In this document: positions 2,543-29,450 of the stretch, one piece after another
How the letters are laid out: every line of letters begins with the position of its first letter
Numbering within the stretch: the stretch's first letter is position 1
Assembly (NCBI GenBank): GCA_001563875.1
Contig: LKMN01000007.1
Span: forward strand, 1-33,824
Direction of reading: 5' to 3'
DNA length: 33,824 bases
Source: Nanohaloarchaea archaeon B1-Br10_U2g1
GTDB taxonomy: Archaea > Nanohalarchaeota > Nanosalinia > Nanosalinales > Nanosalinaceae
Made by a program: the position numbers and the translations under genes
The notes under the pieces: generated by a model
What the model saw: the letters and a program-made list of their open reading frames with translations, nothing else
What the model was told of the DNA's origin: nothing
The model's database searches: none

Positions 2543-2617
2543 TAGCGGGGCGTGGATTTGAACCACGGACCTCCGGGTTATGAGCCCGACGAGCACTCCT
2601 GGCTGCTCCACCCCGCT
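2543..2617 (-). tRNA. initiator tRNA-Met (CAT)
   Basis: The minus strand folds into a complete 75-nt cloverleaf: acceptor AGCGGGG/CCCCGCT, D arm GAGC/GCTC, anticodon stem TCGGG/CCCGG with loop CTCATAA (anticodon CAT), T arm CGTGG/CCACG with loop TTCAAAT, discriminator A. The first pair is A1-U72 and the anticodon stem carries three consecutive G-C pairs, both marks of archaeal initiator tRNA. CCA is not encoded and there is no intron. The gene runs toward the HypA-like gene. Confidence 0.95.
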
Positions 2618-25478: not shown

Positions 25479-26858
25479 ATGGCCAGAAATTCTATTTATC
25501 CGTCGGTTATGAGAATCCTGTTCACTGCGGCCGTTCTAACAGTATTTTTGACTGGAGCCTCCGCTGAAACCTTTGGATCGGAAGAAGGACCTCTACCCGT
25601 TATAACACAGATTGATATCTATGATGTCTCAGGCCTAGAAGCGGAAGAAAGGAGTACTGATGGAGAGCTTGTTGCAGAGGGATTGAACGAAACATTTGAG
25701 ATAGAACAGCAGGATGAAACAAGGACCTACAGGTTTGACTTCACAGTTGTTAATGAAGGTGAGGAAGACTGGGTAATAGAAGATGAAGATGAGCTATCAC
25801 ACAAAGGTATCGATGAGTCATGGAGCACGGAAAGAGTATGGTACAACCTTACCGACGAAGAAGACTTTGAAGGAGGAGAGTTCGAAGAAGGCGTGGTTGA
25901 ATGGGATACATCAGGAGGAGTTCTAGGGACCGATGAAGAGATGAGCGCCCAGTACATTATAGATACTGATCAAGATCAATCACGGCTATACGAGCAAGAG
26001 TTCTTGGTGAACGTTACGTCCGACCAGTTTCCGAGCGACGATGATTTCGCTGGAAGCCAAGATAAACACGAACTTGATCTGGTTAAACTAGGCTTTCTCG
26101 AACTCGATATCGATCAACCGGTAGATGAGACAACGCTTCCTGCGGACAAAACGTTTAATCTGAACGGAACCGTTTCGTGTATCGAAGGAGAATGTGGAGA
26201 AGTAGAGTCCCTACCACGTTACAATCAGTCTGAAAGTCCTGACACACAGATACAGGAAGAGACAGGAGAACCCTTCCATACTGAAGGTTCAAACAGTTTC
26301 GAGTGCGAGCTAGGTTTTGAGGAGGAATGTGGTGTAGAATGGAGTGTAAACGCTACAGGAGAAACCGAGTCTTATCATTTGCTGGATATAAAGTCCTCTT
26401 CAGAGTTTGAAGAGATTGAAGACGAGAGCTCAGAGGATAGAGAGGTACAGATAAACCTCGTTATAATGATGGATCTGGAATGGGATGTTGTGGACTTCGG
26501 ACTTCTTGATCCTGGTGAAGAAGACCGTTCAGCGGAAGGAAATAATGAAATGAAGTACAATATAACTGTGGGGGATGATGCTAACGCTATAGACCATCTT
26601 TGGGTAAAGTCAACCGATCTGGAATCAACGGAAGATGAAGGCTACAGTATAGAAGCTGGTAACATAAGCCGGTCATTTGATAACGATGTTAACAACCTTT
26701 CAGACGCCAACAGACTCACAAACACATACCAGAGTATTAGGTCGGATATAAGTCCGGGAACAGTGTTAACAAACTATTTCTGGATTGATGTGCCGCAAGG
26801 GATAATTAGGGGAGATTACAGCGGAACAATGAGCTTTAAAGCTAACTCTACAAGGTGA
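25479..26858 (+). CDS. secreted acidic surface protein
   Basis: A 459-residue protein with a signal peptide (hydrophobic core about 12-27, likely cleavage after ASA at 29). The body is highly acidic and beta-rich, with many Asn-X-Ser/Thr sequons and Cys pairs (CIEGECGE; CELGFEEECG). No C-terminal membrane helix is present. The last about 110 residues resemble a beta-sandwich (YNITVGDDANAIDHLWVKS; GDYSGTMSFKANSTR), as in other archaeal surface proteins. No enzyme motif is seen. It opens a run of three surface-protein genes, all plus strand and closely spaced. It may be a cell-surface or secreted structural protein; identity is unknown. Confidence 0.75.
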   Translation: MARNSIYPSVMRILFTAAVLTVFLTGASAETFGSEEGPLPVITQIDIYDVSGLEAEERSTDGELVAEGLNETFEIEQQDETRTYRFDFTVVNEGEEDWVIEDEDELSHKGIDESWSTERVWYNLTDEEDFEGGEFEEGVVEWDTSGGVLGTDEEMSAQYIIDTDQDQSRLYEQEFLVNVTSDQFPSDDDFAGSQDKHELDLVKLGFLELDIDQPVDETTLPADKTFNLNGTVSCIEGECGEVESLPRYNQSESPDTQIQEETGEPFHTEGSNSFECELGFEEECGVEWSVNATGETESYHLLDIKSSSEFEEIEDESSEDREVQINLVIMMDLEWDVVDFGLLDPGEEDRSAEGNNEMKYNITVGDDANAIDHLWVKSTDLESTEDEGYSIEAGNISRSFDNDVNNLSDANRLTNTYQSIRSDISPGTVLTNYFWIDVPQGIIRGDYSGTMSFKANSTR

Positions 26859-26864
26859 GAACTT

Positions 26865-27620
26865 ATCAGAAAGACGATAATAATTCTGCTCTTAACATTT
26901 TTTATTACAGCTGTAGCCGGCACATCTTTTGGTTCATTTAGCTTTGAAAGCAGTAAGTTTTCTGAGGACTTGAACGCTACCTACACTTTGGGACTAATAA
27001 ATCCGGGAAATGAAACGGTTAAAGTAGAGCTTGATTATTCTGGCTCCGAAAACTACAACGTAACATTTGACAGACAAAGCTTTGATATGCCTCCTACAGA
27101 GGTCTCTAGTGAGCCTCAGAGATCCGGAAGCTACTATATGGGAGACGGACTTTACGCAGAGACTGAGGAAGTAGAGGTTTTGCTGGAAGCAAGTAGATAT
27201 AGAGAGTCGAATCAGATAGAGTTTCCGGTAACTGTGCATGCATCCCTTGATGAAACAGAGGGGACACAGGATACAGTCTACGTCCAGGAACATTTTCTGA
27301 ATCTCGAGATAGAGCCATCTCTGATACCTGAAGAACGTGAGGAAGAGGTTCCTGGATACCAGGAAAGATTCTGGGATGAGGCCCAGGACCTGACTAGTGA
27401 TGAGAACGAGTCTGAAGAACGTGAGGAAGAAGAGCAAGAAGAACAGATTGAGGAAGAGTTTAACTTTGAGGAAGACGAATCTGATTCTAGGGATGAAAAC
27501 CAAGGAAAACAAAACGTTACTGAGACAGAGGAGATAGAAGATTCAGAGGTTGATACGGTTACATATATCCTTCTCTTCGGCCTATTAGTCTCTCTAGTCT
27601 ATCTATACAGGGTTTACTAG
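26865..27620 (+). CDS. surface protein with signal peptide and C-terminal anchor, apparent ATC start
   Basis: A 251-residue protein if translation begins at ATC 26865; the first canonical start codon is TTG at 26970, which removes the signal peptide. From 26865 the frame reads IRKTIIILLLTFFITAVAG, a textbook signal peptide, and continues without stops into the body. AGGTGAG (26853-26859) sits at the right distance before ATC, overlapping the TGA of the previous gene. Bases 26859-26969 contain no ATG, GTG or TTG in this frame. The body is a beta-type domain, then a Glu-rich stretch (about residues 170-215) and a C-terminal helix (TYILLFGLLVSLVYLYRVY). The stop is followed directly by the next ATG. 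An ATC start, a sequence error, or TGA readthrough from the in-frame previous gene could explain the layout. Confidence 0.6.
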   Translation: MRKTIIILLLTFFITAVAGTSFGSFSFESSKFSEDLNATYTLGLINPGNETVKVELDYSGSENYNVTFDRQSFDMPPTEVSSEPQRSGSYYMGDGLYAETEEVEVLLEASRYRESNQIEFPVTVHASLDETEGTQDTVYVQEHFLNLEIEPSLIPEEREEEVPGYQERFWDEAQDLTSDENESEEREEEEQEEQIEEEFNFEEDESDSRDENQGKQNVTETEEIEDSEVDTVTYILLFGLLVSLVYLYRVY

Positions 27621-29450
27621 ATGAAAAACTTTCTGAAAGGACTGGGTATAGGAGTTTTAGCAGGAGCTTTAGTTCTGCTGTTCTCGTCTGCTTATGCTAC
27701 AGAAGGCTCAGATGTCAGCGTGGGTGTGACGACAGGATGTGAGCTAGGTCTTACATCTTTTGAAGGCCCGGGATACTACGATACTGGTGTCATGGGATCT
27801 AATGATACCGACCACTTTTCAGGATCTCTTGTAAATTCGGGGAACACTGATCTAGAGCTTCATTTCAATCTTTCAATCTATCCTGAGGATGATCCAACCT
27901 TACACCCTGACGTTGACGATGAGAACGGTTCCATAAAGCCTATGCCCTTAGACGGCCAACAGGGTAACTACACCTTCATCTCGAATCTTCCAAGTGAGAC
28001 GCAGACAGTCAACAACACCAGGTTTCAGAACTTTCTAATCCATTTTGCTTCAGGAGGTACCTTTGGACCTGGAAACTATACTGCTGAAGCTGTAGTAGAC
28101 TATGTCTGTGATGGGAACATAACGGAGGATGAAGATGATGAGTTGACAGAGCTCTCAACCTCGGAGGATAACGAAACCGAGAATGATGACAACGGCGGAG
28201 ATGAGGAGGAAAATGGACAGACAGATTATGATGTTGTTGAAGATACAGATGGTAACGTAACTGATGAGGTAGACTTTGAGATAATTGAAATACCGGCAGA
28301 TGGAGATGCTCCGGACGATGTCGGAGATGAGGACGATGTAGATTTCGAACTCGATGCCGATGCTATAATTGAGAGATTAAACGAGACAGGAGAAGTAGAC
28401 ACTGATGTGAACGAAACAGAGGATGTTGAATTAGCATTAGATGCAGTTATAGAGGAACTTGAAGAGGCTGCAGAGCTTGACACAGATGTTGATGAAGAGG
28501 AGGATGCTGATCCTCAGGAAGGAGATTCGGATGCTCCTGGAGAAACACCGGAGCCTGAACCCGAGCCGGAACCGGAACCCGATCCGAGACTAGAGATAGA
28601 GATTACGCCTGTTAACCATACCTATGACGCAGTCCAAGGCCAGTTCGCGCCCGCTGCCCTTGAGGTAGAGAACTTTGCTGATGAGCCTGTCGAAGATTTT
28701 GAGCTAGATCCGTTGATAGATGAGACTGACCCCGATTGGGGTGTGGAAACAGCTGATATAGACTCTATTGAGCCTGAAGAGGTGTTGGAAAGAGATGTTT
28801 ACGTTCAGCCTCCGAGCGATATTGAGCCAGGAGAGTATACCGTACCTGTTACAGCAGAGGATGAGGAAGTTGTAATGGATATAGATTACTTTACCGTTGA
28901 CGTAGAGGAGTCGGAGTTTGATCCGTTTATAGAGATAGTTGAAGCACCTCAGAATATCAATTTAGAGGTTGAAGAGGAAGAGGATATACCTATACTAGTT
29001 GAGAATGTTGGAGAGACCAACCTAACGAATATTGGAGGTCAGGTTCAGAACATAGATTCGTGCGGTAATGCTACAGTATCCGAAGTAGACTTCATGGATG
29101 AGAACGAGTCTGAATCGATGACTATAAACTTCAACGCCTCAGAGGAAACTGAGGAGTGTGAAACCACTCTTATTGTATCTTCCGAGGATGGGGCATACAG
29201 TTTTGCAGACATGACCGTAACCGTGGTTCCTGAGGAGGCTTTGTTGCCTCGTGAACAGGAGGTGCCTATAGTTGCGATTTCCTGGACCTTGTTGCTGGTA
29301 GCCTATGCGGTCATGAGGAAGAAATATGACTTGGACTCTGTAGTTGTTAACATCCCTTTCATACTCCTGATAATAGGGCAGACCATCATTATACTCTACC
29401 TAGTCGCACATTACTACGGACTGGCGGGCTCATCAATCCTGCCGTTCTAA
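27621..29450 (+). CDS. large acidic surface protein with internal repeat and Pro-Glu linker
   Basis: A 609-residue protein: signal peptide (about 1-27, AYA before TEG), a beta-rich N-terminal domain (about 28-165) with many Asn-X-Ser/Thr sequons, and a very acidic low-complexity segment (about 166-310). Next come a PEPEPEPEPEPDP linker (310-322), a domain resembling a stalk of beta-sandwich repeats (about 323-545), and two C-terminal helices (about 548-566 and 574-598). Residues 242-269 and 270-296 form a tandem duplication (ADAIIERLNETGEVDTDV and LDAVIEELEEAAELDTDV). The ATG follows the previous stop directly. The domain order suits a stalked surface protein or adhesin; function is unknown. 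Confidence 0.75.
   Translation: MKNFLKGLGIGVLAGALVLLFSSAYATEGSDVSVGVTTGCELGLTSFEGPGYYDTGVMGSNDTDHFSGSLVNSGNTDLELHFNLSIYPEDDPTLHPDVDDENGSIKPMPLDGQQGNYTFISNLPSETQTVNNTRFQNFLIHFASGGTFGPGNYTAEAVVDYVCDGNITEDEDDELTELSTSEDNETENDDNGGDEEENGQTDYDVVEDTDGNVTDEVDFEIIEIPADGDAPDDVGDEDDVDFELDADAIIERLNETGEVDTDVNETEDVELALDAVIEELEEAAELDTDVDEEEDADPQEGDSDAPGETPEPEPEPEPEPDPRLEIEITPVNHTYDAVQGQFAPAALEVENFADEPVEDFELDPLIDETDPDWGVETADIDSIEPEEVLERDVYVQPPSDIEPGEYTVPVTAEDEEVVMDIDYFTVDVEESEFDPFIEIVEAPQNINLEVEEEEDIPILVENVGETNLTNIGGQVQNIDSCGNATVSEVDFMDENESESMTINFNASEETEECETTLIVSSEDGAYSFADMTVTVVPEEALLPREQEVPIVAISWTLLLVAYAVMRKKYDLDSVVVNIPFILLIIGQTIIILYLVAHYYGLAGSSILPF

Follow-up and report, generated by a model that had tools for sequence, protein, structure and literature searches.

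Organization of the surface-protein locus

The window, i.e., the whole stretch of 33,824 nucleotides analyzed here, belongs to an archaeal draft genome of 709,831 bases in 26 contigs (G000). Toward its end, a gene for a surface protein lies between two neighbors on the same strand, with the following features:

25479..26858, + strand: upstream gene, 459 amino acids, ATG start, a neighbor conserved in the family (open reading frame list, family search)
26853..26858, + strand: Shine-Dalgarno sequence AGGTGA with the TGA stop codon of the upstream gene inside it (sequence; identical in the sister species)
26865..26867, + strand: proposed ATC start codon (frame free of NTG until 26970; the sister species has ATT at this codon, other family members NTG)
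26865..27620, + strand: gene for the 251-residue surface protein, stop codon included (open frame, identity to the sister, third-position bias)
26865..26918, + strand: predicted signal peptide, residues 1-18 (Arg-Lys n-region, hydrophobic core, model helix 2-15)
26925..27314, + strand: predicted Ig-like beta-sandwich domain, about residues 21-150 (AlphaFold, Foldseek, weak FixG_C match)
27555..27614, + strand: predicted C-terminal membrane helix, residues 231-250 (model helix; hydrophobic segment conserved in nine homologues)
27621..29450, + strand: downstream gene, 609 amino acids, ATG start in the window (open reading frame list, ortholog comparison)

From these predicted parts, the product is a membrane-anchored surface protein, and its gene belongs to a conserved gene cluster. 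The signal peptide would be cleaved after AVA. The Ig-like domain was modeled by AlphaFold with pLDDT values mostly near or above 90 and gave Foldseek matches to PapD-like, MSP, and FixG-related domains; the acidic stalk between this domain and the C-terminal helix was modeled with low confidence. In a Pfam scan of the gene and its neighbors, only a glycosyltransferase upstream scored above the cut-off, and the match to FixG_C was weak.

Some neighboring genes have peculiarities of their own. The sister orthologue of the downstream gene (L039:3574) has a possible ATT start, the alternative being a TTG inside its signal peptide. Another family member, G017, contains four matches to the upstream 459-amino-acid gene within ~14 kb (C7:485403-499100; L033 and L036 to L038), one of them with an internal TAA, which possibly represents a local expansion of this gene family with a decaying copy.

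The reading frame lacks a canonical start codon before or within its predicted signal peptide

Direct reading of the sequence placed the TGA stop codon of the upstream gene at 26856-26858, followed by a 6-nt spacer (26859-26864), the ATC codon, and AGA AAG (Arg-Lys). The first-pass annotation had positioned this ATC six nucleotides past GGTGA and directly before Arg-Lys, and these coordinates proved exact. When the canonical genes of the survey described below were evaluated by the same measure, spacing peaked at 6 to 8 nt, which the spacer of the window gene fits; the 16S 3′ end, read in family member G008, is GGATCACCTCC. In the frame 26859-27620, also read directly, no in-frame ATG, GTG, or TTG was present between 26859 and the TTG at 26970, in agreement with the annotation. 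The codons upstream of this TTG encode IRKTIIILLLTFFITAVAGTS, a signal-peptide-like stretch. That a signal peptide is encoded there, as had been proposed, is supported by the hydrophobic stretch and the preceding Arg-Lys, both of which are kept in the sister species.

The proposed AUY start is conserved in the sister species

The only congener available for comparison, G001, carries the same gene after the same upstream gene (L008), with 65% identity over the whole length. Its start region reads AGGTGAAAACATT ATT AGA AAA ACC, compared to AGGTGAGAACTT ATC AGA AAG ACG in the window. The homologous codon in the sister is thus ATT, located behind an identical AGGTGA, and the two species differ by a 1-nt indel, with one extra base in the sister between TGA and the start. 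The frame, the Arg-Lys pair, and the hydrophobic stretch are conserved, as is the presence of a non-NTG AUY codon at this position. Counted from the ATC/ATT codon on, differences at the three codon positions amount to 11/8/24 in the first 35 codons and to 68/43/144 in the whole gene, with a bias toward the third position. As judged from these counts, coding constraint begins at the ATC/ATT codon, and the pattern of differences is that of translated sequence. In the sister, two consecutive ATT codons are present at the start, either of which could be the start there. The closest canonical codon there, a GTG, follows four codons later and lies ~20 nt away from the Shine-Dalgarno sequence; the window has ATA instead, and this GTG may be an alternative start in the sister.

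These data bear on several other explanations for the window gene. Initiation at another codon, be it the unusual CTG 26889 or ATA inside the signal peptide or the later TTG 26970, is quite improbable. TTG 26970 is the first canonical codon of the frame, but a start there would lose the signal-peptide stretch according to hydropathy. CTG is in general a weak start codon, and CTG 26889 is CTT in the sister; the ATA common to both species lies more than 20 nt from the Shine-Dalgarno sequence. Loss of the start, leaving an early pseudogene or a silenced gene that is scarcely translated, would be in line with the reduced expression from weak start codons, about 10% of AUG in Staphylococcus aureus reporters (PMC13009471). 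It is nevertheless very improbable in view of the frame that is intact in both species, the 65% conservation with its third-position bias, and the retained Shine-Dalgarno sequence.

The first-pass annotation had also offered readthrough of the TGA at 26856 as an equally testable alternative, by which the upstream protein would be joined to the signal peptide, then serving as a membrane anchor. The upstream gene and the window frame are indeed continuous except for this TGA, so that the assertion of a shared frame holds for the window; it fails in the sister, in which the frames differ. As the extra base there puts the two genes into different frames, readthrough cannot be a conserved mechanism. 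The frame relation also varies in other family members, in which the downstream gene has its own NTG, and we regard readthrough as extremely improbable.

The second alternative raised was a sequence or assembly error converting ATG to ATC. ATC is one base off ATG and the genome is a draft metagenome assembly, but the separate assembly of the sister has ATT. ATG is absent here from both assemblies, which makes a simple base error in the window improbable. Moreover, starts of this kind are found in numerous genes and genomes, some of the latter assembled as single contigs, and independent errors would be needed in all of them. Taken together, we consider an error highly unlikely, and the surface-protein gene very probably starts at AUC 26865.

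Start codons of homologues in the wider family

Alignment of the start with close relatives, a check suggested by the annotation, gave ATT in the sister and GTG, TTG, or ATG in other genera. The aligned residue is encoded by GTG in G008 (GTG AGG AAA), by TTG in G007, and by ATG in G009, G010, G011, and G018, and the homologues of G017 and G005 apparently start with GTG. In the G006 homologue, the first NTG is a GTG deep within the signal peptide, and the start is possibly an ATC behind GGAGGT, although this GGAGGT at the same time codes for conserved residues in the protein of the upstream gene. The AUY start of this gene is therefore conserved within the genus and certain in only two species, the window species and its sister, and beyond the genus NTG is used. 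Since the start codon of the gene varies freely across the family (ATG, GTG, TTG, ATC, and ATT), tuning or drift is favored over a dedicated switch. The ATT of the sister, the canonical codons at the same place in other genera, and further ATT/ATC genes of the lineage support the idea that ATC serves as start where ATG would be expected.

Probable AUC and AUU starts in other genes of the lineage

Further genes of this type were sought in stretches of G000, G001, G008, and G009, which are partly draft genomes. An initial automatic search for homology preceding the first NTG returned mostly antisense or other-frame shadow open reading frames and conserved promoter stretches; overlap and coding score were used to filter its matches, which were afterwards inspected by eye. 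In the survey proper, genes were predicted by codon usage, orthologues were paired, and conserved parts upstream of the first NTG were sought, the set comprising 1185 genes with reciprocal partners and the start calls being comparative. Sites were scored as Shine-Dalgarno positioned if they had a match of 5 or more bases at a spacing of 4 to 8, and the survey thus selects for Shine-Dalgarno matches. Among non-NTG codons positioned in this way, 6 of 17 ATC, 2 of 18 ATT, and 0 of 18 ATA codons lay in conserved coding sequence, as did 17 of 896 other codons. ATC and ATT together are thus enriched (8/35 versus 17/896; Fisher p about 1e-6, a value that is only approximate because neighboring sites are not independent). 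Several of the 17 other sites neighbor a true ATC within the gene concerned or result from spurious extension in the upstream direction. One ATT hit, G001_14, is probably false, having an ATG eight codons on that is common to its orthologues. With this hit removed, seven genes among the 1185 passed the strict test, two of which encode methionyl-tRNA synthetase (MetRS). A G000 gene with ATT versus ATG in its orthologue (L062:17744) was excluded, as an in-frame GTG lies within its Shine-Dalgarno sequence.

Upon individual comparison with orthologues, convincing candidates for AUC or AUU starts were found in at least seven further gene families, encoding RNA polymerase B″, a lipoyl acyltransferase, an antiporter, a Nudix protein, an ATP-grasp protein, an AAA kinase, and a prepilin. 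RpoB″ of G001 begins AAAGGTGATTACCC ATT CAG AGA, with the next NTG 80 codons on, whereas G000 has ATG there at 96% identity. RpoB″ served as a control across the family genomes, with ATG in 14, GTG in two, TTG in two, and ATT only in G001. At the G001 gene, as at the surface-protein gene, a TGA lies inside AGGTGA, an arrangement that would suit translational coupling. The lipoyl acyltransferase of G009 begins AGGTGATCCAAAA ATC, with the next NTG 57 codons on; G000 has TTG, and the Pfam lipoyl domain of the G009 protein is matched from residue 2. The Na/H antiporter of the same genome begins GAGGTGATAAACC ATC, and two homologues have ATG. Likewise, ATC in G001 corresponds to TTG in G000 for the Nudix protein and to ATG in G008 for the ATP-grasp protein, and ATT of the AAA kinase in G000 and G001 corresponds to ATG in G009. 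The prepilin-like protein of G000 begins GGAGGTGGTACCTGT ATC CTG AAA GGA CAG, with GTG in G008. A prepilin-like protein of G001 (L084:5450; GGAGGTGTACAAGT ATC CAG AGA AAA GGA) was without an orthologue in the sample. In MetRS and in the seven gene families above, starting at the next NTG would remove conserved domains.

As AUU stands at this position in the sister and a number of further family genes follow suit, AUC/AUU starts are, by this comparative evidence, customary in the lineage and do not result from a sequencing error. Gene callers as a rule choose ATG, GTG, or TTG, so genes with AUY starts may be truncated or lost; at risk of being cut off are the signal peptide of the surface protein, the lipoyl domain, and the MetRS N terminus.

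Methionyl-tRNA synthetase genes apparently avoid AUG starts

The MetRS gene of the window's genome (L066:2240-4303, minus strand) has an ATC behind AGGTG, and the next NTG follows 52 codons on. Within the family (MetRS loci L110 to L129), an ATC or ATT backed by a Shine-Dalgarno sequence is present at the MetRS start in 15 of 18 genomes, and 10 of these 15 have no in-frame NTG from the preceding stop codon to the conserved TSALPY core. An in-frame NTG occurs somewhere before this core in G002, G004, G010, G012, and G015; that of G012, a GTG near the start, is a real alternative. The GTG within AGGTGA lies 10 or 11 nt upstream of the ATC/ATT in the genomes counted by eye, G012 apart, and is therefore out of frame. 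In G003, G009, and G011, the TGA of AGGTGA is an in-frame stop codon directly before the ATC/ATT. The three exceptions among the 18 genomes are G016 (ATG), G005 (GTG), and G008 (L112), which has no in-frame NTG and could start either at an ATC directly adjoining AGGTGA or at a TTC with the usual spacing. By eye, a TATA-like box was also seen ~24 nt upstream of AGGTGA at the MetRS loci, which suggests that the leader of the mRNA is very short.

In a second archaeal family (f6; nine genomes of three genera; L164 and L225 to L232), MetRS has GGAGGT, or GGAGG in one genome, followed after 6 nt by ATA in 9 of 9 cases. In three further families (f3 to f5), MetRS mostly has an in-frame GTG inside a Shine-Dalgarno-like stretch, and these were left out of the count because this GTG is available; many others have ATG. 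Several MetRS genes of other families (L161, L163, L165, L158, L155, and L156) show the arrangement GTG NNN NNN TTY, in which the GTG is part of a Shine-Dalgarno-like stretch, and their start may be either the GTG or the TTT/TTC. MetRS of G055 (L169) reads GGGAGGTGTTTAG GTA, a possible GTA start, with ATG or TTG in relatives.

The persistent avoidance of AUG in MetRS suggests selection. A broader reading, to which we give somewhat less than even weight, is that archaea use AUH starts as a selected part of gene expression, with a fraction of genes in the family at AUC/AUU and with MetRS kept off AUG, including AUA in a second, distant family. Under this broader reading, a non-AUG MetRS start possibly links the availability of initiator Met-tRNA with start-codon stringency, by a logic similar to that of infC. 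The occurrence in two archaeal families raises the testable question of whether archaea regulate initiation via the MetRS start codon, MetRS being the enzyme by which the initiator tRNA is charged.

Initiation machinery and proposed mechanism

The initiator tRNA gene of the window is located apart from the surface-protein locus:

2543..2617, - strand: initiator tRNA-Met, anticodon CAT, A1:U72, GGG:CCC anticodon stem (ARAGORN, sequence)

An altered initiator tRNA or genetic code was rejected on the basis of these normal features, in a genome sampled in stretches; the tRNA-Ile(GAT) lacks the A1:U72 pair. Loss of aIF1, which was reported to disfavor noncanonical starts in archaea (PMC6237735), was dismissed as well, as 16 of 19 family genomes contain the gene, among them the two of the window's genus. 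Self-regulation of aIF1 of the infC type does not apply either, because the aIF1 genes read in family genomes have ATG starts and the window gene encodes a surface protein. With a normal initiator tRNA and with aIF1 present and starting at ATG, we infer that the ordinary initiator Met-tRNA mispairs at the third base.

In the proposed mechanism, small ribosomal subunits, many of which probably come from the upstream gene that ends inside AGGUGA, would be positioned 6 nt upstream of the AUC. Initiation would be by the ordinary initiator Met-tRNA (CAU), paired with A and U and mismatched at the third base alone; the protein would then carry methionine at its N terminus and keep its whole signal peptide, and it would be made at a lower rate than from AUG. 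More generally, AUY initiation would be enabled by a good Shine-Dalgarno sequence and, in operons, also by ribosomes terminating at the overlapping stop codon. We consider it very likely that the window gene is translated in this way, from AUC 26865 by initiator Met-tRNA, with placement by the Shine-Dalgarno sequence and, probably, some coupling to the upstream gene and a reduced rate, as one instance of a lineage-wide tolerance of AUC/AUU. The sequences themselves show the position of the AUC, its conservation, the lack of alternatives, the Shine-Dalgarno sequence, and the recurrence in other genes; use of the initiator Met-tRNA, coupling, and the reduced rate would follow from the proposed mechanism.

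Comparison with known systems

The bacterial infC gene, encoding IF3, starts with AUU or AUA, and IF3 rejects such codons, which results in self-regulation. The genes described here resemble infC in having a conserved AUH start behind a good Shine-Dalgarno sequence in place of AUG. They differ in that the discrimination factor aIF1 starts with ATG, the window gene encodes a surface protein, and the conserved case is MetRS. In S. aureus, the conserved starts of cvfC1 (AUU) and of ccpN and infC (AUA) are directed by extended Shine-Dalgarno pairing, and AUU/AUA reporters gave about 10% of the AUG yield, with up to 30% for ccpN in rich medium (PMC13009471). In contrast to this IF3-containing bacterium, which was studied by ribosome profiling and reporters, the archaeal family was analyzed by sequence comparison and has AUC/AUU starts and no convincing AUA. 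In Streptomyces, the GTC start of sigR sets the expression of this one gene and the stoichiometry of its operon, and a GTG inside the Shine-Dalgarno sequence had formerly been annotated as the start (PMC5472188). The window gene likewise has a noncanonical start, which may set its expression, whereas the sigR start is GTC, IF3 mediated, and experimentally proven.

In their study of start-codon switches in bacteria and archaea, Belinky et al. (2017) counted 1 AUG-to-AUU switch in 61,358 and 1 GUG-to-AUU switch in 5,080 (PMC5622118). AUU is thus a rare outcome in their catalogue of AUG/GUG/UUG switches, compared to the seven strict-test genes among 1185 obtained here; their work relied on annotations, which may hide such starts. 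Our searches of open-access literature gave no description of conserved AUC/AUU/AUA starts in archaea or of such starts in MetRS. AUH starts as such are already known from bacteria, and the archaeal cases, with the MetRS pattern foremost in interest, appear to represent a new variant of them.
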